From positions 1 through 25,127 of the forward strand of contig MU266661.1 in assembly GCA_021014945.1 (NCBI GenBank): a stretch of 25,127 nt of DNA. Reading direction: 5' to 3'. The translations under genes and the position numbers were made by a program. The DNA comes from Leucogyrophana mollusca. Taxonomy: Eukaryota; Basidiomycota; Agaricomycetes; Boletales. Positions 1 through 25,127 of this stretch are shown here, piece after piece (the first letter of the stretch is position 1; the number at the start of each line of letters is the position of its first letter). The notes beneath the pieces are model-generated. The model was not told where the DNA came from and made no database searches. It saw nothing but the letters and a program-made list of their open reading frames with translations.

Positions 1-345
1 CCAGGCCATAAGTTGCGTCAGTGGGCAGGTTGTTTGCTTGGGGCGTGTTTAATTTGGTTCCGTTGGGTCATGAATGGATGGATGGATCATCGGATAGATG
101 GTTGGATGGTTGAGGTGAGTGTCGCTTGAGCGCAGGTTGACAGCTTGGAGCATTTGGCAGCGCTTGTGTGGTTGGACAAAGGTCTTCAAGCGGAGCTTCA
201 AACATGTTGTTCTAGCCACGTCGCAGGTAATACAGTCCACCACATTCATTGAGCCACGCCATCCGGAATGCCATTGCGCTCCCAACCTCCAGCAACCCAC
301 TTCAAGGCGGCACCAGTCATCAGACTGTCATGAGAAGTTATCATA
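1..345 (+). repeat. Left terminal inverted repeat (345 bp)
   Basis: Bases 1-345 match the reverse complement of 24786-25127 at every position except a 3-base insertion (TAA, 228-230) in this copy. The repeat starts CCAGGCCATAAG and stops abruptly after TTATCATA, beyond which the two sides share nothing. Near bases 71-115 it contains an ATGG-rich tetranucleotide stretch. The 345-bp unit has no inverted repeat of its own, which argues against it being an independent small transposon present twice. Its ends do not match the terminal bases I know for hAT, CACTA, piggyBac or Polinton elements. It probably serves as the end recognised for excision or replication of the whole element. Confidence 0.97.
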
Positions 346-369
346 GGGTACATCCCAGGTACAGTGTTT

Positions 370-475
370 GTGAGTAGTTTATTTGTTTGTGGGCCCTTAT
401 CTTTTGCTCTCTGCTTCACAGATTGCGAGATACAAAAAAGCTCGAAGGGCGGAAATTAGAGCACAGCGGAAAAGG
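370..475 (+). other. Possible intron (370-421) and short basic exon (422-474)
   Basis: Just inside the left TIR a GTGAGT donor at 370 and a CTGCTTCACAG acceptor ending at 421 delimit a 52-base intron-like segment. The following 53 bases read in one frame as a lysine/arginine-rich peptide (IARYKKARRAEIRAQRK) up to a GTAGGC donor-like site at 475. This could be an exon of a transcript that starts in the TIR and reads inward. I found no start codon or convincing continuation, so it is recorded only as a splice-like signal. Confidence 0.2.
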
Positions 476-480
476 TAGGC

Positions 481-767
481 ACTTGCCGTACTTGCAGCTT
501 GACTCACTTGCCGGTTGGGCCAGTCTTAGCGTATCTTAGTATAATTGCCAGTGTTGTATTTACTTATTTATGTACTTGGTCAATACTTGGTTACATTTTT
601 TACTTGAAGCAATTTTGTGACACCAGACGAGATCTACGCTTAGCTGCCTTGATGAGACTTAATTAACTTAGCCTACTTGTACTTACAGAAAAACAAGTAA
701 AATAAGACAGGTTACATAAGCAGAGTGTAGTTTTCCTGATGTTCACTTCACAAGTTTTCGTGACTTG
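481..767. promoter_or_regulatory. Left subterminal cluster of ACTTG motifs
   Basis: Eight ACTTG pentamers start at 481, 490, 506, 574, 585, 602, 675 and 763, and two reverse copies (CAAGT) at 694 and 751. That is ten copies in 287 bases, where a random sequence would give about one or fewer. No equivalent cluster lies inside the right TIR (24159-24785). Subterminal repeats of this kind are typical binding sites for a transposase or replication protein, but the one-sided placement also fits a promoter region or a replication origin. No gene is called in this stretch. Confidence 0.5.
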
Positions 768-896
768 CGCTGTAAGTACGCTTTTCTCGCACTTCAAATT
801 TTCACCTGGGACCCCCGCAATCGCCTTCCTATCATGTACTTCGAGCCGAGGACGACACTGTAAACCATCACCTCACATGCAGACACGAGGCTGACG

Positions 897-951
897 GTAA
901 GTGATTTTATCTCATTTCGCGACACGTTTCACTGAGGTTGTGTTATACTAG
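897..951 (+). other. Probable 5'-UTR intron upstream of the 1063 gene
   Basis: A GTAAGT donor at 897 and an ATACTAG acceptor ending at 951 define a 55-base intron, the usual size in this element. No useful reading frame precedes it, so it most likely lies in the 5' untranslated region of the gene whose ATG is at 1063. Confidence 0.45.
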
Positions 952-1062
952 GTATTCCCCCACGTGGGCGTCCGCCTTTGCATTCACCTTACCATCACGT
1001 CATCCAGTGTGTCTTTGAATATCCACTACCATCCAAACTCATAGTCATCGCCGATTGCAAAT

Positions 1063-2365
1063 ATGGGGTCACCCCGTCCTGGTAACCCGATGTCACCTAA
1101 TCCCCTTGTTCGCGAACGCTCAAAAGCAGAGTCGATCGGTGCGGGCGTGAAATCCCCCGCGCGTGTCGCTGTCGTAGTGAAGCTTCGTACCGGAGTGGCG
1201 ATAACGCCGAAGAAAGCTACGGGTGTCACACCTAAGAAAATAGCTCCAGTGCTGGCGAGGAACACCAAGGCGAGTTCTCGTGAGAGGGGCATATTCTCTC
1301 CTGTCCGTACCAACGCATTATCACCTGTCCACGACATAGGCCCAGATGTAGGAAACGTATCGGGTAAGCTACACCTTGTAATGCAGTTCGTTTGAACGTT
1401 CCAAAGGACGATGAATTTCTAGGGGCCCATATGAAGAACCAGGCATGTAGGCGTGCACCAGTGGACGAGAACACGCGACCAGGTCACTCCTTGTCACCTG
1501 CCAGGCAAACCGAGTCAATATCGGCGCATACGGTGGTTGGGGGTCGATTCTGCAATTAAATGGAGTGTCGGTTCAATTGTTGGGCGGTGGGAATGCCAAA
1601 ACAGTGTCACACTTGGCATCATCTGCCTCTCGTACAGCATTAGCTATTTCCCATTCTTGCGCTGCGTCAACTGTGTCCCAAGCGGCCTCGGCGAACAAGC
1701 AGAAGTTTCGGTATGAGGCGGACAATGGAAATGACGAGGGAGACGACACAACAGACTCGCTGTCGTCGCCTGACTTACCCATGCCGAGAAGTGGCTCTGC
1801 TCGTTGCGATTGCAATGTGGATGATGCCCAGTATGGGCGTGTAGAGTATGAATGCGATACTGCATTTCACGTCACATGGGTAGTAAAAGGAGGGCGAAGA
1901 GACCGGAAACAAACCTGAATGTGATCAAGATATACGTGATGTGGTCTATCCTGTTATGGTGTACGTCGTCCAACTCTTCATCTGTGGCTAACATGAACAG
2001 AGTTCTGCGAGATAGCGTTGGCGGACGTGGGGAACAAGTATATAGAGCATTGCATGGTGAGTTCATTGTACATCAACATCATGGACGTTGCTGTCTAACC
2101 TGACTGATGTTTAGCATGTCCTTCCGGAACCGTGTTCTATGTGAACGCACGGAATGCCAGGGCATCCGGTGGATTGAACCCAGCAAGCGCTAACGACACC
2201 TCGAGCGTGATAGGCGTGAAGCCCTCAAAGAGGCGGCGTGATGTGCATTGGTTGAAGGCAGACGCAATGCGTAATTACCATGCCATGGCTAACGAGGTCC
2301 TTTCAGCGTCAATGCCTGGCACAAGTCAGCCGCCGCAATGTGAGTTCGAGCCGATTACCAAGTGA
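1063..2365 (+). CDS. Multi-exon gene for a basic Ser/Pro-rich hypothetical protein
   Basis: I do not recognise the product. The first exon (ATG at 1063 to 1363) encodes a basic, Ser/Pro-rich stretch containing the repeated motif TPKK (ITPKKATG, VTPKKIAP), followed by a GTAAGC donor at 1364. A second block from 1462 (after ACCAG) continues the Ser/Pro-rich style in phase. A third block ends at 1830 with an acidic run (DNGNDEGDDTTDSLSS). It then joins in phase through introns 1831-1883 (53 bases), 1941-2000 (60 bases, CTAAC branch site) and 2057-2114 (58 bases, GTGAGT donor) to a last exon ending TGA at 2365. The last exon is again basic (KPSKRRRDVHWLKADAM). The junction between the second and third blocks (1535-1605) is unresolved. 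Disordered basic and acidic tracts suggest a nuclear or DNA-associated protein, but this is inference. Confidence 0.4.
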
Positions 2366-2514
2366 CCAGTAGGTCATGAACCACGTCCCCATTACTTGTA
2401 CCTAGTCCCGAAATGCCTCTATACGCAAGTTGCTCTACTCGAATCATGTCTCGTTTATTTCAATGACAACTATGATACTATCTGTAAGAATTTATTCAAT
2501 ACAGACGTATATGA

Positions 2515-3063
2515 TCACGGCTCCTCTAATAACTGAAAGGCGAGAAGAAGACCATGGAGTTCTGCGAGAGACATCGTCTCTCCAAACTCTCGAATTAAGA
2601 ATTTGTTTCGAAGTGGATAGCACCAACTAGCTGCAACCTTCAGGTACTTTCCACGAGTAAGTCCGGTTTTGACAAAGTCGTCCTGATAGTGTTCAAGGTT
2701 CGGCACCGCTGACTGCAGGAATTCGAGAACATCTGCGTCAACTGACTTATCATGCTCAGGTCGGGGCGGAGCAGGGGTTATGGTGTATTCAGAATGGTCG
2801 TGTGCAGAAGACCTGTTAGCCTGCATTGAAGGGCCGATTAGAGAAGATATCAAATCATGATTATCATAGATGATGACTGCATACCCTGACGAGATGGTGT
2901 TCCTGTGGACGTGAAGGGCCCCGAGTGTGCATTGACGCCTACAGTAAGAGATCTAGTGAAGGTATATCATAAATAGTGGAGAAACCTACCATATATTCCA
3001 AGTGAGCTTTGATAATTGTTTTTGTGTCAGAGTTGGACAGTTGGAGGCACTCCCCGCTGATAT
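2515..3063 (-). CDS. Spliced gene with C-terminal helical (SAM-like?) domain, 5' end unresolved
   Basis: Three minus-strand exons fit in phase: 3063-2990, 2938-2885 and 2820-2515. The introns are 2939-2989 (51 bases, GTAGGT donor, GTAG acceptor) and 2821-2884 (64 bases, GTATGC donor, CTAAT branch site, GCAG acceptor). The last exon ends with a compact helical domain of about 70 residues: VLEFLQSAVPNLEHYQDDF, then GLTRGKYLKVAASW, and near the end SLAELHGLLLAFQLLEEP. This pattern resembles small SAM-like domains that are expanded in uncharacterised agaricomycete proteins. That comparison is from memory, not from a search. An AG at 3064-3066 precedes the first exon listed, so at least one more upstream exon is expected. 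The gene converges on the 1063-2365 gene and diverges from the F-box gene at 3854. Confidence 0.5.
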
Positions 3064-3853
3064 CTAATCAAGTCACCTGATCCGATAACGGTGAGATCAT
3101 CATCGATCAGACTCGCAGGACAATTATATTTATCATTGACTGAATTTCACAATACACGTAATATACAACAGCCGTATCGGGCACCCCCTGGACCCGGTCC
3201 GACGCTCTCTCTATCCCCTCTTCTCGCGAAATTTCTCCCTCCCCGAAACCCTCGGCGTGTGCATTAGCGAGTCACAATCTTGAAGCCCATCGGATAACAA
3301 AAACAAGAGTAACAGTAACGTAATGGTCACCACGGTCATGTCCGAGTCCTACATAGTTTCGCTCATGTATTGGAGTTAGGGTAACCTTCCCTTCATTCTA
3401 CCACTAACAATTCCCTTTCCACGTGTCACTGTCCTAGCGTAGTTTTCGCTCTAAAAATTCAGCACTTTTTAGAGTGAAAACTACGCAAGCACAGTCGCTT
3501 ACATCAAGTGATTCCGTTTGCGGCGTCGACAGTATTTCCGGCAAAGAAGCCGTTTACCAACGCATACCGACGATTTTCAATGGCGTCCGTCATGGTGAAA
3601 ACAGACTGACCTAAACAACACTAAGCACAGAAAGGAACGTGTTCCCTTTATGTCCTCTAACTGAAACCCTTACCTGCGGGCCTCAGCAACAGTTCCGTGT
3701 TCCGTAGCTTCATCCGCTGCACTCATATATTCTACAAATGTACGGATATAGATCGAGAGGGCCCCCGGGCCGGCGCAACACACCATACACATATATGACC
3801 CCGATATAAGTTATAGTTCTCTCAAGTACATTGATAGTCAATCCTAAATACGA
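3064..3853. other. Divergent intergenic region (790 bp)
   Basis: This stretch separates the minus-strand gene ending at 2515 from the plus-strand F-box gene. It should hold both promoters and the missing first exon of the minus-strand gene. The only strong structure is the inverted repeat at 3437-3486. AT-rich TATAT tracts at about 3789-3812 lie some 40-65 bases upstream of the F-box ATG. I see no other gene here. Confidence 0.5.
3437..3486. repeat. Inverted repeat, 21-bp arms, 8-base loop
   Basis: The left arm 3437-3457 (GCGTAGTTTTCGCTCTAAAAA) pairs with the right arm 3466-3486 with a single mismatch (G versus A opposite C in the middle). The loop TTCAGCAC spans 3458-3465. It lies in the middle of a divergent intergenic region. 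It is too long and too perfect for chance, and could be an operator, a cruciform-forming origin or a fold-back remnant. Confidence 0.85.
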
Positions 3854-4768
3854 ATGGACTCCATTCGATCAAACTTAGCTGCCCTCAATGTCGACGTTCT
3901 GGATGAAATATTGCAATACCTGACATTTGAAGAGCTGCAGAAATTTGCCTCTCTATGTCGATTGCACCGGACGTGGATGAAAGATCACATCAACCATCGG
4001 AAGCTCGTCAATGATGCGGGGGTAATAGGCGACGCAGTCAGTTTCAACAATCTACTTCGAGATACTTCCTCAGTTGTAGCAGGGGATATTGCTCGGGACT
4101 TGTTCTATCCTCCTCCACTTCACTTGCGTCCTGCAGACCACATCCAAATGCACGTAACTGCCTCACAATACGGCATCGTACAATCCCACCTCGCACTGTC
4201 AGGTTTCAGGATCGACGCCGCTAAACCAGAGAAAAATCCGCTTTCCAGCTCATCCATCGACTCTGTCTTCATCGCGCTGAAAGCAAACAAGCGAATCACC
4301 ATCTTTGTGTCTACCCAAGACGTCGCATCCAGAACCGTGTTCGAGATGCCTACCACGTTACACATGAATTGGCTATCAGCAGACGTATATTTTTCGGCAT
4401 ACCCCAACCTTCTACGCAACCATAGAGGGCTTACCAAATCTCTCGCAATGCGAGACGGACGCTTGGTTGCTGGGGTTATGAGAGAGATCTTGTACAGAGC
4501 GGAATGCGGTGACTCCATCGAAACATCCCCTCAAGTATGGGACAGCCCGGGAATGCCGAAGCATACGTGCACCAGCAGTCCAGACTGTTTGCACTGCGTT
4601 AGACACACAGATGACAGTAATTGTCTCTGGGTCCATTTAGATAACGACCGCGACGTACCGGAAGACTTCCGTGCCATGGAGGATCCAGTTATCATGTGGA
4701 CCATAGGAGGCGACGGGTGTAATTACGAACCAGGGACCGGCAGCGGAGGAATGTTAACTGTACTGTAA
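3854..4768 (+). CDS. F-box protein, agaricomycete type
   Basis: A single-exon ORF of 304 residues starts with ATG at 3854. Residues about 12-41 form an F-box: hydrophobic spacing in NVDVLDEILQYLTFEELQKF followed by a CR..R.W ending (SLCRLHRTW). F-boxes bind Skp1 and bring substrates to SCF ubiquitin ligases. The middle part, with motifs SVFIALKANKRI, TTLHMNWLSADVYFSAYP and NHRGLT, looks like the C-terminal region of the large agaricomycete F-box families that lack WD40 or LRR repeats. A Cys/His cluster (CTSSPDCLHCVRHTDD) near residue 240 could bind metal. The protein is uninterrupted and slightly shorter than many relatives. The gene is probably captured host cargo, or an element-borne factor that alters host protein turnover. 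The F-box call is firm and the target is unknown. Confidence 0.8.
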   Translation: MDSIRSNLAALNVDVLDEILQYLTFEELQKFASLCRLHRTWMKDHINHRKLVNDAGVIGDAVSFNNLLRDTSSVVAGDIARDLFYPPPLHLRPADHIQMHVTASQYGIVQSHLALSGFRIDAAKPEKNPLSSSSIDSVFIALKANKRITIFVSTQDVASRTVFEMPTTLHMNWLSADVYFSAYPNLLRNHRGLTKSLAMRDGRLVAGVMREILYRAECGDSIETSPQVWDSPGMPKHTCTSSPDCLHCVRHTDDSNCLWVHLDNDRDVPEDFRAMEDPVIMWTIGGDGCNYEPGTGSGGMLTVL

Positions 4769-4897
4769 TTATCGCGACGATTTCGGTTATTGGGTTTTGC
4801 GTGCGAATTGATGACCTATTAGGAGTAAATCATGGTCAGACCCCAATTATTATAATATAGGTGTCAGGTCAACGGCGATACGAGTATCCGAGACAAC

Positions 4898-5002
4898 ATG
4901 GAGACCACAACGAATATCATCGCGTACGTTGATAACGTTCAGCATCCCGGTATCGTGACCATCCGACAGTATCCAACGCAACTGCAAGGATATACTCAAT
5001 AG
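4898..5002 (+). CDS. Small ORF, 34 residues, hypothetical
   Basis: ATG at 4898 opens a 34-residue frame (begins METTTNIIAYVDNVQ) that stops at TAG 5000-5002, 17 bases before the ATG of the next ORF. It has plausible amino-acid composition and could be a first exon of the gene continuing at 5020, but I see no clear donor site. No function can be suggested. Confidence 0.25.
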   Translation: METTTNIIAYVDNVQHPGIVTIRQYPTQLQGYTQ

Positions 5003-5019
5003 AAGCACGCACCCTGATC

Positions 5020-5307
5020 ATGAACGGGGGTCCCGGAGAATTCGCAAGCGTATGGGTCAACGCTACAAGGGGACCCACTATTCGCTGTTACTGGATTGTG
5101 TACGACCGCAGCTGGTCTTCGCGAGTGTGCGATGCACCTTATATGTGTTTGCGGTTATCTGCGGACGGGTCATATTTTATGCCCGTTAATGACGATGACA
5201 TTGTCACCATTCGTAGAGCTTGGATCGGTGGGCATGTCGTTCATCATCCGTTTTTCAGCGACTCACGGGATCGAACCCTATACCATGTCTCCGGGAAAAC
5301 CGCGTAG
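5020..5307 (+). CDS. Hypothetical protein, 95 residues
   Basis: A 95-residue ORF with an ATG start, rich in aromatic and beta-strand-like segments (TIRCYWIVYDRSW, APYMCLRLSADGSYF, DDIVTIRRAWIGGH). Its end overlaps the next ORF (5285) by 23 bases in another frame. The polypyrimidine-AG at about 5245-5261 could be a splice acceptor that would alter the C-terminus. The product is not recognised, and the tight overlapping arrangement is more compact than typical fungal chromosomal genes. Confidence 0.35.
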   Translation: MNGGPGEFASVWVNATRGPTIRCYWIVYDRSWSSRVCDAPYMCLRLSADGSYFMPVNDDDIVTIRRAWIGGHVVHHPFFSDSRDRTLYHVSGKTA

Positions 5308-5470
5308 AAGGCGTCGACATAGATTGAAGTGCGGATTAAAAGCTTCAGTGTCATGTGTATATCGTCCTCTGAATCGCGGAAAGGACCATTGCGCCGGTAT
5401 AGAGTTACGACTTAGACAGGTATCGGTTAGGGAAATCATTAAAGAGACCTATACGCGCGTCGATATTTGA
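5285..5470 (+). CDS. Small very basic protein, 61 residues
   Basis: ATG at 5285 starts a 61-residue frame. Its N-terminus is extremely basic (MSPGKPRRRRRHRLKCG), and it carries a possible amphipathic C-terminal helix (VREIIKETYTRVDI). The composition suggests nucleic-acid binding or a nuclear localisation signal. It overlaps the 5020-5307 ORF, so one of the two may be wrong, or both may be exons of one gene. No family is recognised. Confidence 0.3.
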   Translation: MSPGKPRRRRRHRLKCGLKASVSCVYRPLNRGKDHCAGIELRLRQVSVREIIKETYTRVDI

Positions 5471-5877
5471 ACAGAACATAGATTTTTTCAAACCTGCCTG
5501 GGGTGGAATGTAGCGGTGAGCAAGACAAGCGAGAGAAATTGTAAAGGATATGTGAACAATACCCACAGGAACGGTACATTAGACGAGTTCATTATTAGCG
5601 TGCAGGCGTTTGGAATCCAGTGCATCTCTATTTCGTCTATCAACGAGATAGAGGAGATCGAGGAGCACGGGAGTCCAATAGAACGCAGTAGACTGGAATG
5701 AGCAGTAAGAAATGCTCGCCTATGCTTTAATTCGTTGGTTTATATACTTATGATTAGCCCCGGACCGATAGAACTCTTGCACGGGATTCTTAACCTCGAG
5801 TGTCAACGCCGAGGCTTTCAAAACGATGATAGGGTTACGTCGTGCAACGAACGGACTCTAAAAGCCAAGGAAAGCGG

Positions 5878-6276
5878 TCAATTCCTTTCGATGTCAAACG
5901 TCAGATAGTAGCTCATAACGAGCAACATACAGATATTGCACATCAACGCCTCGAATATTACACAACACACAGCACAAGATCCGACGCTGATTGATTGACA
6001 TCGAGCCATCACGATCGTGTTATGCATAGCTTCTTTCAAGGAGTGACTTCCTCGAAAGAAAGCTTGCATATACAGGACCTGTAAAGGTGTTATAGGGACA
6101 TAAAGAGCGTACTGCGAGGAAGGTCGGAATGCTTGACCCTTAATAGATAGATGCTGCCGTGTGTGAACTGATGGGTTGCGAACGCCGAGGATTTCGACGG
6201 GATAAACAGAAGGTGGGGAATCACTCGGGAAGGCGCGAGACATTCGTCGATTGTCTATAAGCGGAAGCGCACGCAT
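5878..6276 (-). CDS. Hypothetical membrane protein, 132 residues
   Basis: A minus-strand ORF with ATG at 6276 and stop at 5878. The N-terminal 95 residues are mixed and Pro/Ser-containing. Near residues 98-128 a long hydrophobic, cysteine-rich segment (CAVCCVIFEALMCNICMLLV) could cross a membrane once, leaving a very short tail ending FDIERN. An A/T-rich TATATATAAA tract lies about 10 bases upstream of the ATG, which is too close for a standard TATA box unless translation starts at the methionine at residue 12. The function is unknown. Confidence 0.4.
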   Translation of the reverse strand: MRALPLIDNRRMSRAFPSDSPPSVYPVEILGVRNPSVHTRQHLSIKGQAFRPSSQYALYVPITPLQVLYMQAFFRGSHSLKEAMHNTIVMARCQSISVGSCAVCCVIFEALMCNICMLLVMSYYLTFDIERN

Positions 6277-6518
6277 CTCAATTTTTATATATATTAGATA
6301 TACGGAACCTGATAAGTGACCCCAGCCGGACCGTTATAGCCCTTATATTACAGTAGGTAGCGCTATTTCCAGTTCCTCATTCTCAAATGGGATTGTTGAG
6401 GACCCCGCATACAATAGTGCATCACATTGTCGAGGGACGGAGAAGAAACCGAGCCGGGTCCAAGCTACCTCGTACGATGTATAGCGTTATAAATACATAG
6501 AGACATATGACGATGATG

Positions 6519-7633
6519 TTAGATGGTAATGTCCCCCATGTCCTGGGAAACGAGCAAGCCGGTGTCCTCCGCTGCTTGGAAATCCGAGCTGTGTAGTAAT
6601 GAAATAGCTTCCATCTCTAGCTGCACTCGACTGTTCCACGTTCCATTCTCTTTGGTCCGGTAGCGTGTAATCTTGGCCTCCAAGAGTACGAGATCACGTG
6701 TCTTTAAATCTGAACAAACAGTGAGACATGACGATGTAGTTCATTCGCTCTCTTAAAAGCACATGTTTAGTCAGTGCATATTTCACAATACGATGCCATT
6801 CATCATATTCCTTTATGATCAACCCATTCCCGATGTTGTATTCAAGAAAAGGGTTGATGGCGAATGGCACTACGTCGTCCTCAAGGATTACTTTCTACCC
6901 ACTCTGAATTCGTGGATGTCTATCTTAGTACATCCACACACAAACGCGGCAGGGAGGTGCGAGAGGGGATAATAGACGGCTCCTCGCAAGTGATACATCA
7001 GGTTCACTTACTGGATGATACATTCGGTATGTACTGCAGTAGTTAGTGAGTGACGGTATTAACATAGGTATAGCTGGAACAGCCCCCCCTCAGTCACTTT
7101 ACGGTCGCGTGCACACGGTTTGAACCGAGACTAGAAGAGGGAACCGTCGTAGGATTCCTGTGAGTTCTATTTTATGATGCGGCATTTGATATAATCAAAT
7201 ACTACACAATAGACCAAGTGGGTGTCATGTTCCTACTGGGTCGATACAGGCGCTGAGGGCAGCAGTGACTTCGTAATTATTGATTACTGGTTCGAGTTAT
7301 AGGCGTGCACATCAGTGGTAGTTTGACGATAAGTAGTTGAGGTCGCTAAGGTTGGCTACAGCACCATCTTTCATCTTCATCTATCGTTGTTCCCTTATGC
7401 TGTACAGCTCCTTTGACAGTGTCATATTGGCGCATGTAATGCACTTACTTTAACCAGGTCCGTTCGACGCAACCAACGTCCGTAATTGTGATGGGTACAA
7501 TTAAGGGTAGAGTCTCGCGCATGCGTATACATACATAAGTGCAACTGCCAACATTATCGTATTCGTCTGCGTTGAACGGCGGAAAGTATAGCCGTTGCTG
7601 AGCGCCGTGGTGTCTGACGGGACCACCATCCAT
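6519..7633 (-). CDS. Multi-exon hypothetical gene, middle exons unresolved
   Basis: The first exon 7633-7449 starts with ATG (MDGGPVRHHGAQQRLYF) and ends at a GTAAGT donor. Towards the 3' end four exons join in phase: 7157-7103, 7033-7012, 6894-6763 and 6701-6519. The introns are 7034-7102 (CTAAC branch site, CTGCAG acceptor), 6895-7011 (GTAAGT donor, TACTAAG branch site) and 6702-6762 (GTGCTT donor, AAG acceptor). The joined C-terminus contains PFAINPFLEYNIGNG, KEYDEWHRIVKYALTKH and DLVLLEAKITRYR, ending at TAA 6519. The DLVLLEA block with alternating hydrophobic residues suggests a beta-rich (possibly OB-like) fold, which is inference only. Exons between 7448 and 7158 could not be joined without stops, so the gene may be damaged or my splice choice wrong. 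A plus-strand ORF at 6763-6972 is the mirror of one exon. Confidence 0.4.
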
Positions 7634-7635
7634 TA

Positions 7636-7654
7636 GTAGACCATGTAGGTCTAC
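7636..7654. promoter_or_regulatory. 7-bp-arm palindrome between divergent genes
   Basis: GTAGACC (7636-7642) and GGTCTAC (7648-7654) form a perfect inverted repeat around a 5-base spacer. It lies 3 bases upstream of the minus-strand ATG at 7633 and about 60 bases before the plus-strand gene at 7.7 kb. It could bind a dimeric regulator shared by the divergent pair. Confidence 0.3.
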
Positions 7655-7711
7655 GGAGTATAGTTAGTCAGGCTGAGACGGAAAGAATCTCATTACCAGT
7701 AGGCATGAATT

Positions 7712-8952
7712 CATGTGTTGCCCACATACGTCGTAGTGGATGAACGGGAATTCACGGCTGATGAAAATAATGGTGACCACATTGTGCACTATAAATCGCT
7801 GTTTAGGAATGATTCGCGCGAGTATCCGGCTCCAGCTTTCATCCGGTACTCGATTACTGCCGCAACAAATGTAAGGTCATTGCAACATCTACTGTTTAGG
7901 TATTCACATTGACTGTGAAGTAGACAGCTCGGTCGGCCTGCAATAAACGCTTTAGCTTGTGTAGTTTTTCCTGATATGATCGACGCACCTATTACACGCA
8001 ACCAGTATCGCTGGCCGATTATCTTCGCCCAAAGAGTGGAATGCTAGGTGTCCCATTCCCAAGTTTGTGATCCGCTAACCGAGGATATATTGTACAAGAT
8101 CAGGAGTCGATATAGAGTCCCGGTCGTGCCCATCCTCAAATTGAAGCGAGCTCTCTCGAACAGCATAGTTTCTAGGAGCCCAACGATGGCCGTTGAAGTC
8201 GTGTCATTTGGATCGTTTGGCACATATGGTAGACGTACGAAGTCACGCTCGGAGGAGTTGATGAAGAATGCGGTAAAGGTGGTTGCTATTGGGAGGGCCA
8301 TAGGTTGTTCCGGTATTTATAAGCCTTTTTACAGTATGTCCTATACAGCAGGCGGATCGACTCGCGATTCACCGCGTTTGCGACATGCGGTGTGACGAAT
8401 GGAGGTTTTGGTTCGATGCTCCTCAGAGGGGTTTATCAAACCGAGGGACTACATTAGTTTATATACAGAATATGACGCGGGGTACAACTTGCGTGGTATT
8501 ATGCAACGTACTGTTAACATACATGCATCGCCGCCGAGCGAATATCAGGCTTGGTCTGTACGAGATGGGGTTCTTCGCTATACCACTCGCTGTCGACATC
8601 GGGTATATCACCCCGACTTCGTAAACGCGTTCAGATCGACCTCTGTAGCCAAGCGCACACGCAAGTGGTTATACAAGGGACTGGCGTTAAATCCGGAACG
8701 AGAACACATTATACAAACCATTGATGCAGCCTTCGGTGAGTCTTCGTTTGTTGCGGTTGCCTGGTGCCAATGCATGTTATAAGATGGCTTGTGTCCGTCT
8801 ACGGAATTCGATAGCTTGCGTGGGGTTCTTGTATGCGCACGATTGTAGGCAGTGCTAAAGCCACTCCGGTCAGCTTATATCCTTTCAATCCAGAGGTGCT
8901 GTACTCACTCATAGCAGATTATTCGCATTACCTCTTTCTACCATATATGTAG
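7712..8952 (+). CDS. Multi-exon hypothetical gene
   Basis: A chain of plus-strand blocks joins in phase: about 7712-7870, 7924-7960, 8006-8066, 8116-8272, 8335-8389, 8427-8735 and 8849-8952. The donors at 7871 (GTAAGG), 8273 (GTAAAG) and 8736 (GTGAGT) and the acceptors TTTTTACAG (8334) and TTGTAG (8848) look good. The 37-base intron at 8390-8426 is shorter than usual, and an alternative reading starts with ATG at 8399. The longest exon encodes a basic region (SVAKRTRKWLYKGLALNP) leading into EHIIQTIDAAFG, and the last exon ends with an aromatic tail (IADYSHYLFLPYM). The 5' start is unclear because no good ATG precedes the first block. I do not recognise the product. It is transcribed divergently from the 7633 gene. 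Confidence 0.4.
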
Positions 8953-9575
8953 TGTAACCCGATGCACATCAGAGTCAGCATTATTGGAGTATAGTTACGA
9001 AGCATAGGGCATTTAGTAGGAACAATGTCGTTACTGGCGTTTTCAACTGCATCCGTCGCCTTCGAAGCGCCATACAATCACAGGGTGATCTATATCTTGA
9101 TAGCCCACAACAACCATCTTTCCCTTGTCTCTTGCTATTGTCCACTGCTCTTATGATGCTGAGCGGCCCTCCCTAAAAACGCTTTTAGAGAGAGTCACTT
9201 TGCATCAAGTCAGAATCTGTGCAATTGCGGAGTATTGGGACAAAGACACCCTCGAAGCGACCAGATAGATACAGTTTGGTTCCGTACCGTTGCAGACAGA
9301 TCGACCCACTCCCTCCCCTCTACCATTTTAATCGGCATCGCTGAACGCACATTATATATTGCGTCGCCCTCTAATACAAATTGGCAATGACACATATCGA
9401 TAGATTCCTCGATGCTGATGCATCTTTAAGGATCCTTCGGACCCACATTAATGTGTCACCAGTCCAATGGTTGTAGTTTCAGCTAGAGTAAGTGACAGTG
9501 CTACGGTTCAATCGTGATAATGTGTTTATGTTTCAAGTATTGCGACTTCAATACTTAAAAGATAAACGCAGTATC
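8953..9575. other. Region with competing short open blocks
   Basis: No gene can be fixed here. On the plus strand there is a 43-residue ORF at 9025-9156 (MSLLAFSTASVAFEA start, possibly signal-peptide-like) and an open block at 9104-9268 with protein-like content (SLKTLLERVTLHQVRI). On the minus strand an ATG-started 61-residue ORF runs 9395-9210. They overlap, so at most one strand is coding. A small CTAAAA/TTTTAG palindrome sits near 9173-9188. Confidence 0.3.
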
Positions 9576-10029: not shown

Positions 10030-10113
10030 ACCCACTCGGTTGTCGGTCGCGTGCACTATGCACGTTCAATCGCTACTCACGAACTGGTACCCTACGCCAC
10101 ACTTCTCCAGTGG
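9900..10113 (+). repeat. Diverged direct repeat, copy 1
   Basis: The core at 9951-10052 begins TTGACACGCCATCA and includes CGTTCTCAAATGGC. It aligns with 10401-10502, 450 bases downstream, at roughly three quarters identity by eye. Weaker similarity reaches about 9900 on the left and a shared GGTACCC near 10086 on the right. Confidence 0.7.
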
Positions 10114-15317: not shown

Positions 15318-15384
15318 GGTACAGATCATGGGTAGAACAACAAGGTAAACGCGTAAACAGAACGATTACGAAATATTTACCGAA

Positions 15385-16911: not shown

Positions 16912-16919
16912 GGGGAGGT

Positions 16920-16972
16920 CTACGCAAAGGTTAATTCTTTGTGTTTCCCGAAATATGTGTGTAAGGACATAC
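16920..16972 (-). other. 5'-UTR intron of the R2 gene
   Basis: On the minus strand a GTATGT donor (16972) and a TTGCGTAG acceptor (ending 16920) define a 53-base intron with a TTAAC branch site, finishing 8 bases before the R2 ATG at 16911. Confidence 0.55.
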
Positions 16973-17062
16973 CTGAGATACGGAATAAACGGTAAGTGCG
17001 CGTTCGTGGTGATAAGAGATGCAAGTTCAAGGTAGCTGAATCAAGCGGGTCACCGAAATGTG

Positions 17063-17070
17063 TTTTTATA
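17063..17070 (-). promoter_or_regulatory. TATA box of the R2 gene
   Basis: TATAAAAA reads on the minus strand here, about 150 bases upstream of the R2 ATG. This leaves room for a transcription start near 17035 and the 53-base leader intron. The plus-strand ORF at 16996-17196 over this site has no ATG start and is not called. Confidence 0.45.
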
Positions 17071-17350
17071 GGAAGAGGTTGTGTGAATATACCTTACGGA
17101 ATGAAGTGGCCGTGTATATTTGAGGTAGCTTGTGGAGGTGGATGTGGAGCGTGTCAATTATCGAAAGTAGTGGATCATGGTACTTACAAATATTAGCGTT
17201 CTTGACTCAACGTAAGTCGGTTCTAAATAGATGGAATATGGTTTGTGTGTCGGGATACGGCAGATCGCTTGTGAAATGGTGCGTTAGAACTTTGAACCTC
17301 GTTGTTTATATGATGCAATGCATTGTCGTGTGATGTGACATCTAAAATGC

Positions 17351-17762
17351 TTGAACGTGGAAGAATGCACATACAATTGGGATCGGATTCGGGTATTTCT
17401 AGATGTTCCACTGACGCGTTACCAAAACCAACGCAGCTTGCCTAGTTCAAACGGCATAGTTGTCGTAATTGGGCAGTGGTATGTCGAACTTGATTGTGTT
17501 TCGGCTGGATATGCTGGGGTTAGATCAGATTGGAAATTGTGACATACTCATGTGTCGGAGCCAGCTCGTGGAGAGTTGACTAGTGTAGTTAGGACGTGAC
17601 ATTGTGTTTGGCTTGTAAGGTTTCACGTTTGATCCGGAATATACCCCATACCTAGATACAGATCTTGTGCGTTTTCAGGATTTCGTGTATAATGGAAAGT
17701 TGAAACTAACCAATGATGGTCCAATGACGACACAAGATGTAGCTGTTTTACCGTTTTTTTAA
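17351..17762 (+). CDS. Coding blocks of a hypothetical gene upstream of RepHel
   Basis: Two plus-strand blocks look coding. The first, 17351-17542, has TYNWDRIRVFLDVPLTRY and GIVVVIGQWYVELDCV. The second, 17619-17762, has FTFDPEYTPYLDTDLVRFQ and DGPMTTQDVAVLPFF before TAA. They probably belong to one spliced gene, but I could not find a phase-consistent intron between them, and no ATG is certain (a candidate is at 17233). The gene ends 191 bases before the RepHel ATG on the same strand. No family is recognised. Confidence 0.3.
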
Positions 17763-17798
17763 GGCCTGCGCATAAACGGTGTAGTGAGTTCAGATGAG

Positions 17799-17806
17799 TA
17801 TATAAG
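17799..17806 (+). promoter_or_regulatory. Candidate TATA box of RepHel
   Basis: TATATAAG lies about 150 bases upstream of the RepHel ATG at 17954 and just after the stop of the preceding gene. This is a reasonable position for the promoter of the replicase. Confidence 0.4.
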
Positions 17807-17953
17807 TATGGTACGGGCCTTCGCAATGGTGCAACTAACCTTTGTTTACAGGACGCAAGTAATGTCAAACGATCAAATATCTTCTGAATCCACTATAACG
17901 GGTGGTAGGTCACGGTGTTTCTGGTCTCGGTTTGTGTACTCTATTGAAAGAAT

Positions 17954-20900
17954 ATGATGTCTTTAGGTGCTGGCACTAGTTCCTTCGGAACAGTTGCAAT
18001 ATCGGGATTTGAGCCCGTCAGCCTTGGATCCGCTCCTGAAAACGATGGTGAGAATCTGTTACGATCAGGTGAGTCCGATTACCGTTGTTGTTACCAGGCC
18101 ATGGCTCACATCGTCTCGCAATCGTCATCTGTGTAATTGTTCGTTTTATGTTGCCGTTTATTTGTTTGTGTCATATATAGAGCTTCGAACTATTGCATTT
18201 TGCACGGGCGGGCAGATTATTCCCGAAGGTCGTCTTGTTGCCGTGCAAGTGGGTATGTTGAATAGGTCGTACGATTTCCGTTTTGTGTGTGATTCGTTCG
18301 CTTCCTTGCAAAGGCGAATATATGTTGGGGATGTTCGCAATTTAGTGTTTCGCTTGGATCTTCGTGTACTGATAAATGGCTTTCGATATTTTAGTGTTGT
18401 CGGATTGAAAGAATTGTGCCGTTTTCATGGTGTGAACGTCAAATGTCGTGCAAATGCTAGTGAAATTCTCGCTACGTTGGGGCTTCACGTATGTTCTGCC
18501 AGTTGTGCTGATGGGTTAAATGTGTTTTATGCTCGGGCGAGAAATCGTCGAGACATAGAGCGGAAGTTTACCCGAAATATTACTGAGCGCATTTCCGTTG
18601 CTGGTAAAGGGACAGTGTCGGAATCAGTAAATAAAATGCAAGCAATCGATCGTAATATTTATGCGGATGAGTGGAAAGCCGATGGGAACGAGGATGATGT
18701 TGATGATTTGTCCGTCTATGAGATTGCAAGTGGAGAACTGAAGATGTCGATCCTGAACGAGTGGGAGAAAATGATGTCAACGGATCGTCAGAAGAGGTTA
18801 CCTTGTTCAGTTTGTGGTGAGGGTTGCACATCTGAGAATCTAGTGAAGAGGGCTTGTTGCAATGTGCCTTTGTCCTTGCTGGTGAACAGAGATTTACCCG
18901 TAGGCGTTTTTCCGAAGGGTTACAACGCGGAAGCCTATGAGTATGCTATAGTGCATCCAGGTGGGTTGACCAATACATCACATGCTGAATCAATGATGCT
19001 GTGTAGAAGGTGTGAAGTCAGTTTGTGCGAGCATAGAGAAATGCCGAAGTATGCATTAGCAAACTGGTTGTATTATGGGTATGATTGTTTGCCTACAGAT
19101 GTAAGGAATGGTTTTGCACATTCGTCGCCGTTTGAGCGTATACTTATTGCGCGGGCGCGAGCTAGTAAGATATGTTTCCGGTTCACGAAAACAGCGTCCA
19201 GTCCTGGTTCGGATGAGTCGTGTATGGGAAGTTCTGGTGATAGTAGCTCAGCTAGCCGTAAATATTCGAGAGGAAACATTGTTGTAATGCCACAAGATGC
19301 AGCGAATTTGCAAACTGTTTTACCGCCGTCCCGAAGCGAACTACTGGACACGGTTTGTGCGGTATTTGTTGGTGGTGAGGTACCTTCACGAACGACAATC
19401 ATGAAACTAACCCCGATTTTGGTCCGAAAGTCGCGAGTGCGAATGTTAGTGGAATTCTTGTTGAAAAATAATTCGGATTATAAGACGGATTCATCGTTTA
19501 TAGGTTTAAGCGATAGAAATGTAGATGCTTTGTTGGAATCGGAAAGTGCGGACGAAGGTGTGCCTGCCTGTTTGGAAATACGACATTTGTCCAAAAGTGA
19601 AGGTATTGAGAGTGCGAGTACAGGATACACAGGACGTGACTTGTACGAGGATCCGTTTGGGAATTCGGATGTTGTAATGGAGAACGTGGGTTATACCATG
19701 GGCGAGTATTCTGCAAAGAGCTATAGAGAGATGAAGATGGATGCGTTGTCGCATTGTCTACGTGGTCGACCGTTTGTTCAATCAAGGGCGGGGTCACGGC
19801 CAATTCCTGATTTTGAGAACCCTAAGTTACTCACCTGGCTGTTTCCGCACCTGGATCCGTGGGGTATTGGCGCTTTCTACCATCCAGCGAGGTCAAAGCA
19901 CCTTTCAATGCGTGAGCAACTTTGTCATTTGGTACGCATGTATGATTCACCGTTTGCGAGGGATGTGGATTTTGCATTCGTGTTCTATAATATTTTGCAG
20001 AAGAGAAGTGTGGTTCACGATGTTCACTTCAAGGTGCCTCAGCGCAGATACGATGATATTGTGGGTGGTTTGTTAAGAGTCGACATTGATGTTCTACACA
20101 ATTTGCAAAGACGTATGAGGGATGACGCAGGATATGCGCCGTGTGACGACGAGGAAAGGCGAATATGGAAGGTCTTGAGCCAAGTGACAATGGTTGGTCG
20201 TGGAATTCCTGGAACAACCGCCTATAAGCTTAGTTTGCGTAATGAGATCAGAGGGCTGATTCTTCACAAAGGGACGCCTACGCTGTTTCTAACAGTCAGT
20301 CCTTCGGACGTTCATCATCCGTTGATGAGGTTGATTGGTGGTCAAGATGTTGTCTTGGAGGATATGATGCAAGGGGAGGATTTGGATGACTGGAGTCGAC
20401 GTGTGTTTGCTGCGCGAAATCCTGCAGCGTCTGCGATATTTTTCCATACGATTATCACTGCTTTTATCAGAGTAATTTTGAGGTTTAAGAGAGGTGATAG
20501 AGGGTTGTTTGGATATTGTAGTGCATTCTATGGTACGGTCGAGAGTCAAGGCCAAGGCATGCTGCATTGTCACATGTTAATCTGGCTCCGAGGTCATCCA
20601 TCACCGCAAACACTACGGGATAGGATGACGGGTTCGACAAGGTATAAAACAGCTGTTTTCCGATGGATCGAGTCCATTATAAAGTGTGAGTTATTGGGGG
20701 CTACGGCAGTCACGTTGGAGCCCGATGGAATGCCTTTACCTCGTCCAAATCGAAAGGAAGATACTGGGGACCCACATCCTGGTGTTATCCCATCTCCCAC
20801 GTGTGATGGTTTGACGTTTGATGAGTTTTATGTCCAGTTCGAAGATTTCGTCAATGCACTGGTCAAAGAATATAACTGGCACGTTCACACAGGAACGTGC

Positions 20901-23900
20901 TGGAAGTATCTTAAGCGGGGAGACCGGCGTGATGATGCGCATTGTCGAATGAGAATCAATGGTTCGACGTTGCCTGAAACGACGTTGGACGACGAAACAT
21001 TGTCTATTTTATTGCGTCGGCTTCATCCTCGTATAGCTGCATATAATGAGGTGGTAATCTTTTTACTGAAATGTAATATGGATTTGAAGTTCATTGGATC
21101 GGGTGAGGCTGCCAAGGCTTTGATATTCTATGTCACTGATTATGTTACAAAGCCGGCGCTTCCAGCGTACATCGGCTTAGCAGCGTTAGCGAGTGCCATA
21201 GAGAAAACCAATGAGAGGACAAATACGGCGCGTTCGCAAGAAACTGTGGAAAACCCTGGGAGACGAGCTTTAACGATGGCTGTGAACAGTATGATTTCGC
21301 GTCTGGAGATGTCCCACCCTCAAATTATGAGCTACTTACTTGGTGGTGGCGATTATTACAGGTCTCATTCATTTCAAGTATTGTACTGGGGGTCCTTTAG
21401 TCGGCTACTGGAAGATCTTGAGAATAAAGTAAGTGACAACCATGGTACGTCAAACGAATCGTGTAGTGAACATGAACGACTTACTGACAAACGTTTGGAT
21501 GTTGCCAGTCGAGACAGACCTGAGCAAGCTGTGGTAATCACCATGCAGTCAGGGTCTATTACCGCATCGAATCAACAGTACGACTACCTGTATCGCAGTA
21601 CAGCTGAACCTTTCGATGGAATGTGTTTGTATGAATTTATCGGTCGAACGAAGAAAGTACAACGGAAGCATTTGGAGTTCCTTCCACGTATCATCGTTAC
21701 AGAAAGCGACGAGGAAGTCGGTGATAATCCTGAAGAAACTAGTGGGCTGTTTTGTGATGCGAAACATCCGCAATTTGAGACTCACCGATTGAAGCTGCGA
21801 GAAACATTCATAGTCCCCGTGTTGTTGGGCGACAGTATTCCGCGTTATGATCGTAGTGATGCAGAGCGTGAAGAATGGGCTAGGGCCGTGCTAATTCTGT
21901 TTAAACCGTGGCGCGTCGCTGCGGACTTACGAAGGGAGGGAATTAGTTGGTTTGATTCATTTGAGTCCTGTCGGTCGTCGTTCCCGTCCTATATTTGGAG
22001 CACAATTAAGAACATTAATGTACTCGCGGAGTGCAGGGATGCTCGAGCAAGTAACTCTTCGTATACGAGTCAGCTGCGGGTGGTATATGGTGATGATAGC
22101 ATAGATATGGAAGAGGATTTAAATGGTCAGTATGAGGTGTCGCATACACACAATATCTTCGATGGGTGTGATAAGGAGCGTGATGTTGTTGAGTTCGACC
22201 AGATCGTAGAGGTTCTTGGTGAAGGAGTATGTAGTTCTATCGATCGTTGTTACGAGGCCGCAGGAACGCGGCTTGATGATGGTATCGATAGTGCGTGTGC
22301 GTTGGATGATGCTGTGCTTGACGTCACGAAAGGTGTGCCTGATACTGTCACTGCTCATCTGAAAACCATGGGAATGCTAAAGCGTAAGCGACGACCTGAA
22401 CTATGTGATGATACTATATTGGATGGAGAACAGAGTGCTAAGAGAGTTAGAGTACAGGGTCCCGTCGTGGAGCTGTCTACGTTGCCACAGTTAGGAGGGG
22501 GCAGTGCAACTGTAAAAAATTATAACACTGTGAACAGAACGTTTTTGGACGTAGATAAATGCATAGATCACGTGGCCGATAAAATGAACTTACTAGGAAA
22601 TGAAGAGCAAGAGATGGCGTTTCGTATTGTGGCAAATCATGCGAAAAGAGGGGGGCGAGCCGAACAGCTTTTGATGTACATTGCAGGTGTTGGAGGAACG
22701 GGTAAGTCCCATGTCATTAAAAGCGTTGTATCCTTATTCAAGGCGCTAGATAAGACGAAAGAGTTGTTTCTTAGTGCTCCAACAGGAATTGCAGCGGTAT
22801 TAATTTCGGGGTATACAATACATGCATTGACTATGCTAGGGGGAAATACTGCATTGAAAAAAGTTGATTATTCTGAATTACGAGATCTATGGGCAAAGGT
22901 GAATTATTTGATTGTAGATGAGGTGTCTATGGTATCAGCGATGTTTCTGTGTCGGATTCATCACAGATTGAGGGAGGCAAAAGCAGAAACCGCGGGAAGT
23001 TCAGAAAAGCCTTTCGGGGGGGTCAATGTTATATTCACGGGTGATTTCGGACAGCTGAGTCCTGTGAAACAGGCATCACTTTATAAATATTCACTGGTTA
23101 ATGATCCGCGTTTTGATGAATGCTGTAATGTGGATGGAGTTGATGCTCTTACAGGGGTTTATCTCTGGCGCTTAGTAAATGTAGTTGTGCAATTGACGAA
23201 AAACCATCGACAAGAAAGTGATGGGTTTTATGCTGATTTTCTATCTCGTGTGCGAGTGGGTGAATGTTGGCACCCCCGAATCCCTGGTTCATTGCATAGT
23301 TCGATGGAGATGGAATGTGGAACGTACGAATCTGATTTTCATATGCTGAATAGTCGGTTATTGGATAAAGTACTTACAGATTCCTTAGATGTATCTATAT
23401 TTGCGGATGCGCCGATCATTGTTGGGAGTCGTCGGATCAGAGATGCTCTGAATGCGAAGAGGGTTGTTCAGCATGCCGCTCATGTTAAGGAAGAAGTTCA
23501 TATATATTACGCCAAAGATTGTATTGCCAAACAGGTTGTAGGTGGTAGTTTACGCGAACGCTTGTGGGATTATTCGGCGACGGTTACAGAAGATGCGATG
23601 GGTAAATTGCCGATGTTCATCGGTATGAAGGTAATGATAACGACCAATATGGCAATTTCTAGACGCGTTGTGAATGGAATGGAAGGTACGGTCGTTGGTA
23701 TTTGCTATTCAACAGACGATGAACATCGTCGATACGCGCGCCTTGTCTATATTAACATACCTCAGACTGGAATGTTTGCTGATGATTTACCAATAGATGT
23801 GGTGCCTGTATGTCCTGACAGAACATGGTTCTCGGTTCAAGTGCGTGTGGGGATGGGTTCTAGTAGGCGATATGTCAGCAGAACACAAATACCACTGGTT

Positions 23901-24158
23901 CCGGGATATTCTTACACTGACTATAAAAGTCAAGGACGTTCACTGGAAGCAGCTATTGTGGACATAGCAAGTGCGCGTTCACTTCAAGGTGTTTACGTTA
24001 TGCTGTCTCGAGTGAAGAGTTTACGAGGTCTCGCATTGCTCCGAAGATTTTCACCCGTAAAGCTTTATCAGAGATTGCCACAGGACCTTCGCGATGAATT
24101 ATCAAGGTTAGGGCTTCTAGCGTTAGCGACCAAAGAAGCCTATCGGCGGCACGATTAG
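17954..24158 (+). CDS. Helitron-type RepHel: HUH two-tyrosine Rep fused to Pif1-family helicase
   Basis: The protein would nick and rejoin single-stranded DNA and unwind it for rolling-circle-type transposition or replication in the nucleus. ATG ATG at 17954 starts a 38-codon exon ending at a GTGAGT donor (18069). A 112-base intron ends ATATAG (18180), and phase 1 is kept into one exon of 5978 bases, giving 2030 residues. An unspliced reading from GTG 17967 is also open but in a different frame. Features: Cys pairs C247/C250 and C313/C316 (possible zinc binding), a Helitron-like N region from about residue 560, the HUH motif H834-C-H836 in GMLHCHMLIWL, and catalytic tyrosines Y1022 and Y1026 with K1029 (FYVTDYVTK). 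Helicase motifs are Walker A GVGGTGKS (1541-1548), DE at 1618-1619, GDFGQLSPV (1659 on), TKNHRQ, and LSRVKS with R1982. No stop or frameshift interrupts it, and every core motif is present, so it is likely functional. It is long for the family. Confidence 0.95.
18069..18180 (+). other. Intron of the RepHel gene
   Basis: Donor GTGAGT at 18069, acceptor CATATATAG ending at 18180, length 112 bases (not a multiple of 3). Splicing joins the ATG-started frame at 17954 to the long RepHel frame and creates a GAG codon at the junction. This explains why the long frame itself has no early ATG. Confidence 0.65.
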
Positions 24159-24785
24159 GTGAAGAAGCCTACCGACAAGAGACCCCATGTCTTACCATTA
24201 GTGTCATGTATATGTACTATGATTTATTCATGGCCAGAACACGGGGCTTGTGCTACTGTGTGAGCCGTCTAGGCTTCACTGCAGGTAAGAGTAATTAGGG
24301 GACATACCTGGGTGAGTATAGAGATAAACGTGGATATTGTGAGATTGAGTATAGGGGGACGGGCACTGACCACTTAACAAGCGTTCTAAAAATGTCTGCG
24401 TATTGCACCTTCTATTCTTCAGGGACGTTTAGTCTGAACGAGTGACCTTTCGTGGGTGTAGGAACGAGGTCTAGAGGCCAGTTACGACACAAAAGGCCGA
24501 GATAGTGTCTCGGTGCTGGGATATTCAATCGGGAAGAACAAATAGTGGTGCTGCAAAAAAGGCTGATTTGCCATCTCCTGCTGTGGGAACAACGATCACG
24601 TCTTCCTCAGGTGAGCATCAGGAAAACTACACTCTGCTTACAGCAAATCTCAGGTCGATAGATCAGGTTTCGGTTTCCTTCATTGACCGCCTTTGTTTGT
24701 CCTTGGAGCGTGTCCAAATAAATTACCGTGCCCCCAGTCTCTCGTGACCTCACTGCTCGAGTTCACCAACCCTTACGGCCTCGGA
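24159..24785. other. 3' flank of RepHel up to the right TIR
   Basis: No firm gene is present. An 80-codon frame at 24505-24747 uses a GTG start and crosses a donor-like GTGAGC (24611), so it may be an exon at best. Other splice-like sites (GTAAGA at 24285) lack partners. The GC-rich hairpin at 24497-24513 is the only notable structure, and ACTTG motifs like those of the left end are absent. Confidence 0.4.
24497..24513. repeat. Short GC-rich hairpin downstream of RepHel
   Basis: CCGAGA (24497-24502) and TCTCGG (24508-24513) pair perfectly around TAGTG, and CTGG follows at 24516-24519. Classical Helitrons end with a short hairpin followed by CTRR, but there the spacing is usually longer and the next base is T. 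Here the next base is G, so the resemblance is only partial. Confidence 0.4.
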
Positions 24786-25127
24786 TATGATAACTTCTCA
24801 TGACAGTCTGATGACTGGTGCCGCCTTGAAGTGGGTTGCTGGAGGTTGGGAGCGCAATGGCATTCCGGATGGCGTGGCTCAATGAATGTGGTGGACTGTA
24901 CCTGCGACGTGGCTAGAACAACATGTTTGAAGCTCCGCTTGAAGACCTTTGTCCAACCACACAAGCGCTGCCAAATGCTCCAAGCTGTCAACCTGCGCTC
25001 AAGCGACACTCACCTCAACCATCCAACCATCTATCCGATGATCCATCCATCCATTCATGACCCAACGGAACCAAATTAAACACGCCCCAAGCAAACAACC
25101 TGCCCACTGACGCAACTTATGGCCTGG
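24786..25127 (-). repeat. Right terminal inverted repeat (342 bp)
   Basis: This is the inverted partner of bases 1-345 and lacks the 3-base TAA present in the left copy (the gap falls between 24900 and 24901). All other bases agree, so the two ends have been homogenised or separated very recently. Open frames of 75-83 codons run through both copies, but they have no compelling start and no protein-like composition, and I do not call them genes. Confidence 0.97.

Follow-up and report, generated by a model that had tools for sequence, protein, structure and literature searches.

A Helitron-type RepHel and an R2 gene between long inverted repeats in Leucogyrophana mollusca: possibly a large composite Helitron

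Helitrons in or near long inverted repeats have a precedent in Pleurotus ostreatus PC15, in which a 37.2-kb region with 14 predicted genes is flanked by 576-bp inverted repeats, one of them carrying an insertion of the Helitron HELPO1.1; the region is described on chromosome VII and near the chromosome XI telomere, and as absent from PC9 (PMC4289320). The HELPO elements are given there as 1.5 to 13.7 kb long, with T[C/G] at the 5' end and a hairpin and CTRR (CTTG in HELPO2) at the 3' end (PMC4289320). The Helitron2-type FoHeli elements of Fusarium oxysporum are reported to be about 5 to 11 kb long, with asymmetric terminal inverted repeats (TIRs) of 12 to 16 bp and a hairpin at one end or at both, and self-insertion is proposed for composite Fusarium Helitrons with a reversed order of open reading frames (ORFs) (PMC5148889). 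A review puts gene-capturing maize Helitrons at up to 39 kb with as many as nine gene fragments and calls whole-gene capture by Helitrons exceptionally rare, and it is also our source for the size and genes of Polinton/Maverick elements (PMC6431247). Here we describe a 25,127-bp stretch of Leucogyrophana mollusca DNA (the window, which is one entire contig, MU266661.1 or C335 in our numbering) that codes for a Helitron-type RepHel and a ribonucleotide reductase small subunit (R2) between 345/342-bp inverted repeats. We lean toward interpreting it as a large composite Helitron with R2 as a cargo gene, lying inside an inverted-repeat-bounded region.

The window shares features with each of these systems as they are described. 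Like the P. ostreatus region, it spans tens of kilobases, is bounded by long inverted repeats, and includes a Helitron, but it is found in one copy and its RepHel lies inside rather than in a repeat. It resembles HELPO1 and HELPO2 in its one-ORF RepHel (Helitron_like_N plus PIF1), with extra genes alongside and several families per genome, but differs in its 25-kb size, R2 cargo, and several host fragments, and HELPO-type ends were not found in it. Inverted repeats near both ends recall Helitron2/FoHeli, as does the reversed ORF order ascribed to self-insertion in FoHeli composites, although here the inner repeat has 30 bp and the outer one 345 bp. In size class and in the capture of multiple fragments the window matches the large maize Helitrons, in which carriage of an entire five-intron gene such as this R2 would be exceptional. 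The 15- to 25-kb class and long TIRs are those of Polinton/Maverick elements and protein-primed linear plasmids, whose PolB and integrase were not found in the screened frames. Protein-primed linear plasmids share long TIRs with Polinton/Maverick-like elements, and to our knowledge gene-capturing maize Helitrons have none. New here are the skewed right half with R2, the mosaic left half with an F-box-like block, and the inner 30-bp inverted pair; neither a long-TIR Helitron nor a Helitron-borne R2 was found among the titles and abstract openings searched, which include few subscription journals.

The RepHel is a single open frame whose first listed start is GTG, and its Helitron_like_N (102.5 bits), PIF1 (89.2 bits), and DUF6570 (86.6 bits) matches are all above the Pfam cut-offs. 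When it is aligned with nine other RepHel pieces from this genome, the H-x-H motif shows no variation and the two tyrosines, which are four residues apart, show almost none, bearing out the initial annotation of one intact HUH-Y2/Pif1 RepHel gene. The window thus codes for the protein of a Helitron of any type, one RepHel with an HUH Rep, two tyrosines, and a PIF1-type helicase. Genome searches were made in the organism's own assembly (32.3 Mb, 545 contigs), which seems limited to contigs of at least 10 kb, since the one numbered last has 10,008 bp; smaller contigs lie outside this view. RepHel matches are present on at least 16 other contigs, several as fragments, and none of the 16 has a TIR match, such that RepHels in this genome occur without the TIR. 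The best other match to positions 18,500 to 23,600 is 37% identical, in a protein-level comparison only. In a Rep-core tree of 14 rows, the window has a long branch and is not part of the clade of C441, C67, C467, C245, and C456 (support 100/100); the fork joining the window to this clade and C419 has support of 87/89, below threshold, so the placement is unsure. The highest identity of the window's Rep core in the tree is 41%, and that to the C245 RepHel core is about 40%. RepHel relatives were not confirmed in IMG/VR by either single-sequence or alignment scans.

The right half of the window is set apart by strand composition. A two-change-point fit of GC skew places the boundaries at 12,039 and 24,944 (log-likelihood gain, 80), with a G fraction of G+C of 0.503 before 12,039 and 0.608 between the change points. 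Skew is approximately zero over the first 12.0 kb and, in 500-base steps, again from 24.5 kb, and the four 3-kb blocks within 12 to 24 kb have skews of +0.17 to +0.27; 11 host stretches of about 3 kb, picked for resemblance to parts of the window rather than at random, have a standard deviation of 0.068 and an extreme of -0.184. Third-position GC skew on the plus strand is +0.35 in RepHel and +0.38 in R2, and because these two genes are encoded on opposite strands, the bias tracks the DNA strand and not transcription. Skew is likewise positive in each of six core stretches presumed to be non-coding (+0.07 to +0.33), and RepHel third positions have T over A (-0.22), as expected of C-to-T change on the plus strand. 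Skew is negative in five of six F-box-like frames and likewise in four of five host frames. A one-strand bias of this type fits repeated single-strand exposure as in rolling-circle replication. Being independent of gene direction, it is possibly a replication fossil that delimits the core, and such a mark might delimit rolling-circle modules even where their ends are not known.

The R2 gene lies within this core, on the strand opposite to RepHel. Its start and splice sites were picked by eye and every intron is GT...AG; the two main open frames match PF00268 with 104.5 and 181.1 bits, and the reading frame is apparently intact. It has what we take to be the class Ia iron ligands and radical tyrosine, and its last seven residues, FSTNAPF, resemble what is presumably an R1-binding tail. 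The exons and the host R2 matches on C232 share 52 to 56% identity, and the gene is therefore not a recent copy of the C232 gene; that a five-intron frame stays open at such divergence suggests selection, either here or in the donor. There is no sign of a phage source, as five phage records (44 to 50% identity) are no nearer than the host gene, and IMG/VR yields two weak R2 matches. On the sober reading, the locus is a checkable case of an entire multi-intron metabolic gene, rather than a fragment, located beside a RepHel. Over 12,001 to 18,500, own-genome matches are absent save for two short repeats.

The left half is largely a mosaic of pieces that are 68 to 90% identical to other host contigs (Table 1). 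Between 1031 and 3507 neighboring pieces abut or are 1 to about 130 nt apart, and abutting joins are seen at 1786/1788 and 3507/3508; positions 346 to 1030, 6715 to 9124, and 11138 to 11887 have no match in the genome. On C203 the matched stretch lies downstream of a 241-amino-acid (aa) open frame and extends into a second of 391 aa, which gives the C203 piece the look of a host-gene portion. The block colinear with C245 codes for an F-box-like protein, and when the 1,500 bases to its left on C245 were used as the query, the sole other match was to window positions 3508 to 3723. The F-box-like proteins are far more similar than the RepHel cores (81% versus about 40%) and the window lies outside the C245 clade, indicating another Helitron clade as the source of the block, rather than common descent with RepHel. 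By their composition and matches, the RepHel module and the left 11 to 12 kb have different histories. Most of the left 11 kb would have been assembled step by step, as DNA was captured from host loci and from a different Helitron clade in this genome, an account that we favor to the same modest degree as the composite Helitron of which it is part.

Table 1. Coordinates of features in the 25,127-bp window
Feature	Position	Strand	Details
Long inverted repeat, left arm	1-345	+	Outermost base is the contig end; self-comparison and genome search
Long inverted repeat, right arm	24786-25127	-	342 bp; one 3-base indel versus left arm
Inner 30-nt inverted pair, left arm	717-746	+	Self-comparison
Inner 30-nt inverted pair, right arm	24611-24640	-	Self-comparison
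Proposed Helitron core, by G>C strand bias	12039-24640	+	Onset from change-point fit; right limit a judgement
RepHel ORF	17967-24158	+	2,063 aa; DUF6570, Helitron_like_N (HUH, two Tyr), PIF1 helicase
R2 (ribonucleotide reductase small subunit)	15385-16724	-	5 introns of 48-60 nt; spliced 358 aa
Mosaic stretch	1031-3507		C203, C211, C49(-), C393/C296, C46(-); 79-90% DNA identity
Mosaic piece, C203	1031-1786		83%
Mosaic piece, C211	1788-2041		87%
Mosaic piece, C49	2073-2255	-	83%
Mosaic piece, C393/C296	2385-3151		79-90%
Mosaic piece, C46	3167-3507	-	79%
Block colinear with C245:11657-14856	3508-6714	+	73-85%; C245 stretch adjoins another RepHel
F-box-like open frame	3854-4768	+	304 aa; below Pfam cut-off; 81% identical to C245 copy
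Mosaic piece, C439	9125-9207		82%
Block similar to C253	9717-11137		68-72%
Mosaic piece, C105	11888-11954		85%
Dispersed-repeat fragment	24640-24775	+	Copies on C267 (two) and C411 (one)

The inverted ends described in the initial annotation are confirmed by self-alignment, in which the two arms pair over 345 columns with 99.13% identity, zero substitutions, and one 3-base gap (E 1e-174). The genome search that had been proposed for this repeat finds only these two arms among the 545 contigs, and the terminal 21-mer (up to two mismatches) also matches the two arms alone. Pairing of the last 100 to 150 bases with the first 400 was absent from 21 other contigs (C334, whose start reads N, was left out), with one shared 12-mer in C490 and none in the remaining 20, compared with 139 in the window; as far as those 21 go, inverted ends are not a habit of this assembly. 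The arms end exactly at both ends of the contig, and sequence beyond them is invisible. An unresolved inverted repeat halts an assembler at its outer edge, and a TIR at a contig end therefore tells little about the ends of the molecule. Long inverted repeats are also absent around other RepHel loci (14 stretches on 13 contigs, mostly with about 1.5 kb of flank). As DNA, the left arm folds no better than its shuffles (z -0.14; 45 of 100 shuffles fold equally well or better), by which parvovirus-like rolling-hairpin ends are rejected; this also counts against a hairpin-ended linear replicon.

A second, inner inverted pair is nested within the long repeat in the same phase, 371 (left) and 145 (right) bases inward of it, with 97% identity over its 30 nt; a 26-nt pattern from it (up to three mismatches) matches at these two places only. 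On the right, 145 bases separate the inner pair from the TIR, and the dispersed-repeat fragment takes up 135 of them. For Helitron2/Helentron-type ends, which are marked by short asymmetric terminal inverted repeats with terminal hairpins, the inner pair would be a candidate, but its right arm is followed directly by the dispersed repeat. An empty site of the inner pair on C267 was considered and rejected, since the sequence left of the junction is unlike the window's left flank (Smith-Waterman score of 19, versus 16 to 20 in 15 shuffles), and a by-eye comparison of the surroundings of the inner pair showed no target duplications.

No second copy of the core, the TIR, or the inner pair was found in the assembly's contigs of 10 kb and longer. 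Domain screens covered 346 to 12,002 in six frames and 12,000 to 17,968 in five, and beyond that RepHel and the ORF at 24475 to 24744; in these parts no DDE transposase, integrase, PolB, ATPase, or capsid domain was found. Over 346 to 17,968, apart from R2 and the F-box-like frame, the screens returned only chance-level matches below cut-off, leaving RepHel as the only candidate enzyme seen in cis. The PolB that would mark a Polinton/Maverick or a protein-primed linear plasmid is thus missing from the screened frames, and this counts against the protein-primed form of the linear replicon suggested in the initial annotation.

We prefer the composite Helitron as the account that joins these observations. 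The core, from about 12.04 kb rightward, would encode the complete HUH-Y2/PIF1 RepHel together with the R2 subunit gene. As in Helitron biology generally, the HUH/tyrosine site would nick one strand, the PIF1 helicase would peel off the nicked strand during rolling-circle replication, and re-insertion would proceed via a circular intermediate. Capture of neighboring DNA and self-insertion would have made the mosaic and given the F-box-like block its unusual place and direction, and R2 might supply deoxynucleoside triphosphates (dNTPs) for replication or be a whole-gene capture retained by chance. The long inverted repeat would most likely be a feature of the region itself, or else of an older TIR unit carrying the core, and the contig probably stops at the repeat's outer edges, two near-identical inverted copies being beyond the assembler.

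Several observations weigh against this account. Canonical Helitrons (Helitron1, HELPO type) start with T[C/G], end with a hairpin and CTRR, and lie in an A|T target. Such a 3' end (a hairpin, with stems of at least 6 bp, followed by CTRR-T) is lacking near RepHel; the sole candidate window-wide is at position 1,100 on the plus strand, and as 10 one-strand shuffles yield zero or one each, such ends are rejected as no more numerous than chance. The captured pieces are 5' of RepHel, while in the end-bypass model DNA is gained 3' of it. The strand-bias interpretation has exceptions: third-position AT skew in R2 is +0.07 on the plus strand, the wrong sign for C-to-T change, and in other families the sign is just a tendency, third-position GC skew being positive in 14 of 20 RepHel segments from 13 loci and not in 6 of 20. 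The absence of the terminal 21-mer from every other contig is odd for an assembler that leaves k-mer overlaps and fits a free linear molecule. Finally, the shared phase of the TIR and the inner pair, together with the dispersed repeat filling the space between them, suggests that they were once continuous as one longer TIR belonging to the element and later interrupted, which favors the initial annotation. With one copy, the repeats may mark either the true limits of a novel type of mobile element or simply where assembly halted.

An alternative that we regard as unlikely is a large DDE-type TIR element (Pack-MULE-like) that moved in trans and captured gene fragments, and into which the Helitron inserted. 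Long near-identical TIRs with a mosaic of abutting gene fragments are the Pack-MULE picture, terminal inverted repeats are indeed present at the contig ends as candidate element ends, and the nested inverted pairs as well as the 37.2-kb Pleurotus region are in its favor. The TIR has no other copy in the genome, however, and 25 kb is large for this class. No DDE transposase was found in the six-frame and five-frame screens at a threshold of E 0.05, although an intron-split domain could have escaped, and a non-autonomous element would lack one in any case.

That the HUH/PIF1 enzyme replicates or moves the whole 25-kb unit as a TIR-bounded replicon with 345-bp inverted ends seems distinctly unlikely, and with it the further parts of such a scheme, in which the element's own R2 would raise the dNTP supply and the 12-kb G>C bias would be the fossil of one-strand exposure. 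If true, such a replicon would be intermediate between rolling-circle transposons and linear replicons of the plasmid or virus type. An origin of the terminal repeat in assembly, with one locus used twice (for example, as two haplotypes that differ by the 3-base indel), is improbable. The coincidence of the repeats with both contig ends in a draft of 545 contigs speaks for it, but a pure artefact should be letter-identical, unlike these arms with their 3-base difference, the inner pair further in is inverted and non-identical and so is no product of that artefact, and nothing alike is found in the 21 other contigs.

We find it quite improbable that the 345-bp repeats are the true ends of an element that RepHel mobilizes or replicates as a 25-kb unit, an arrangement that would be new for a Helitron-type enzyme and that was put forward in the initial annotation. 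What stands of that proposal is the near-identity of the ends (without a substitution), the intact RepHel, and the lack of another transposase, integrase, PolB, or capsid domain in the screened parts; the same-phase inner pair and the short distance from the RepHel stop codon to the right TIR (627 bases), with a single unit spanning both modules, also favor it. Action of RepHel on these ends does not follow, with one copy, no empty site, and a contig that stops at the repeats. The TIR has no fold, the RepHel relatives in the genome have no TIR match, and the skewed core from 12.04 kb and the mosaic left 11 to 12 kb differ in history. We also know of no need for long TIRs among HUH enzymes. Were the TIR-bounded unit mobile, Helitron-type enzymes would work on long-TIR or linear substrates, and searches for RepHel elements would have to change from TC/CTRR ends or short asymmetric repeats.

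Highly improbable is a linear extrachromosomal plasmid- or virus-like replicon that has identical inverted ends, replicates by means of the RepHel and R2 that it encodes, and entered the assembly entire as one contig. In its favor, the contig ends at the TIRs with a terminal 21-mer seen on no other contig, none of the 21 other contigs has such repeats, strand bias extends over half of the window, and an R2 gene is typical of large DNA replicons, but PolB, capsid, ATPase, and integrase domains are absent from the screened frames, the TIR is not self-complementary, introns, host gene fragments, and dispersed-repeat pieces indicate nuclear residence, the skew has no mirror image about the middle (unlike two-ended replication), and IMG/VR yields no RepHel relative in two scans.

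The F-box-like protein of the C245-like block has relatives on nine other contigs of the genome. The F-box label is weak (16.9 bits, versus a Pfam cut-off of 20.5), there was no F-box match in any of four relatives tested, and a structure predicted from the single sequence was of no use (mean predicted local distance difference test score, 31.6). Of the 16 other contigs with RepHel matches, 7 (C1, C2, C67, C94, C245, C441, and C467) have a conserved gene for such a protein of about 300 aa, placed downstream of RepHel in convergent orientation and present in two copies on C67, C245, and C467. On C419 it is upstream of RepHel on the opposite strand, C204 has the gene without a RepHel match, and the remaining eight RepHel contigs have none among those listed. 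In the window, the frame is displaced. The gene is possibly a conserved partner of these Helitrons and in any event offers a candidate for one, and its Pleurotus counterpart may be the 'cap' genes that adjoin RepHel there. Zebrafish Helitrons are reported to carry active deubiquitinase domains (PMC9741609), and a ubiquitin link would thus not be foreign to Helitrons, although the F-box label is weak.

Smaller repeats are scattered through the window. The two short repeats noted above in the core (12443 to 12521 and 14554 to 14660) are dispersed, with several genome copies of 73 to 89% identity; tRNAs and structured RNAs were looked for at both and rejected (ARAGORN with the bacterial code, and Rfam gathering scores). 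Within the C253-like block, diverged tandem copies (9950 to 10053 and 10400 to 10503) lie 450 nt apart with 76 to 85% identity, and an imperfect 68-nt palindrome (3428 to 3495; 82%) is located near the edge of the C46-like piece.

Elsewhere in the genome, two R2-like genes are arranged divergently, head-to-head, at C232:889-3792. Further R2-like pieces are present at C451:1617, C241:12318, and C287:1555 and 27717; three of the four have an internal stop (all except C241), three of the four are below the family cut-off (all except C451), and they are possibly decayed copies.

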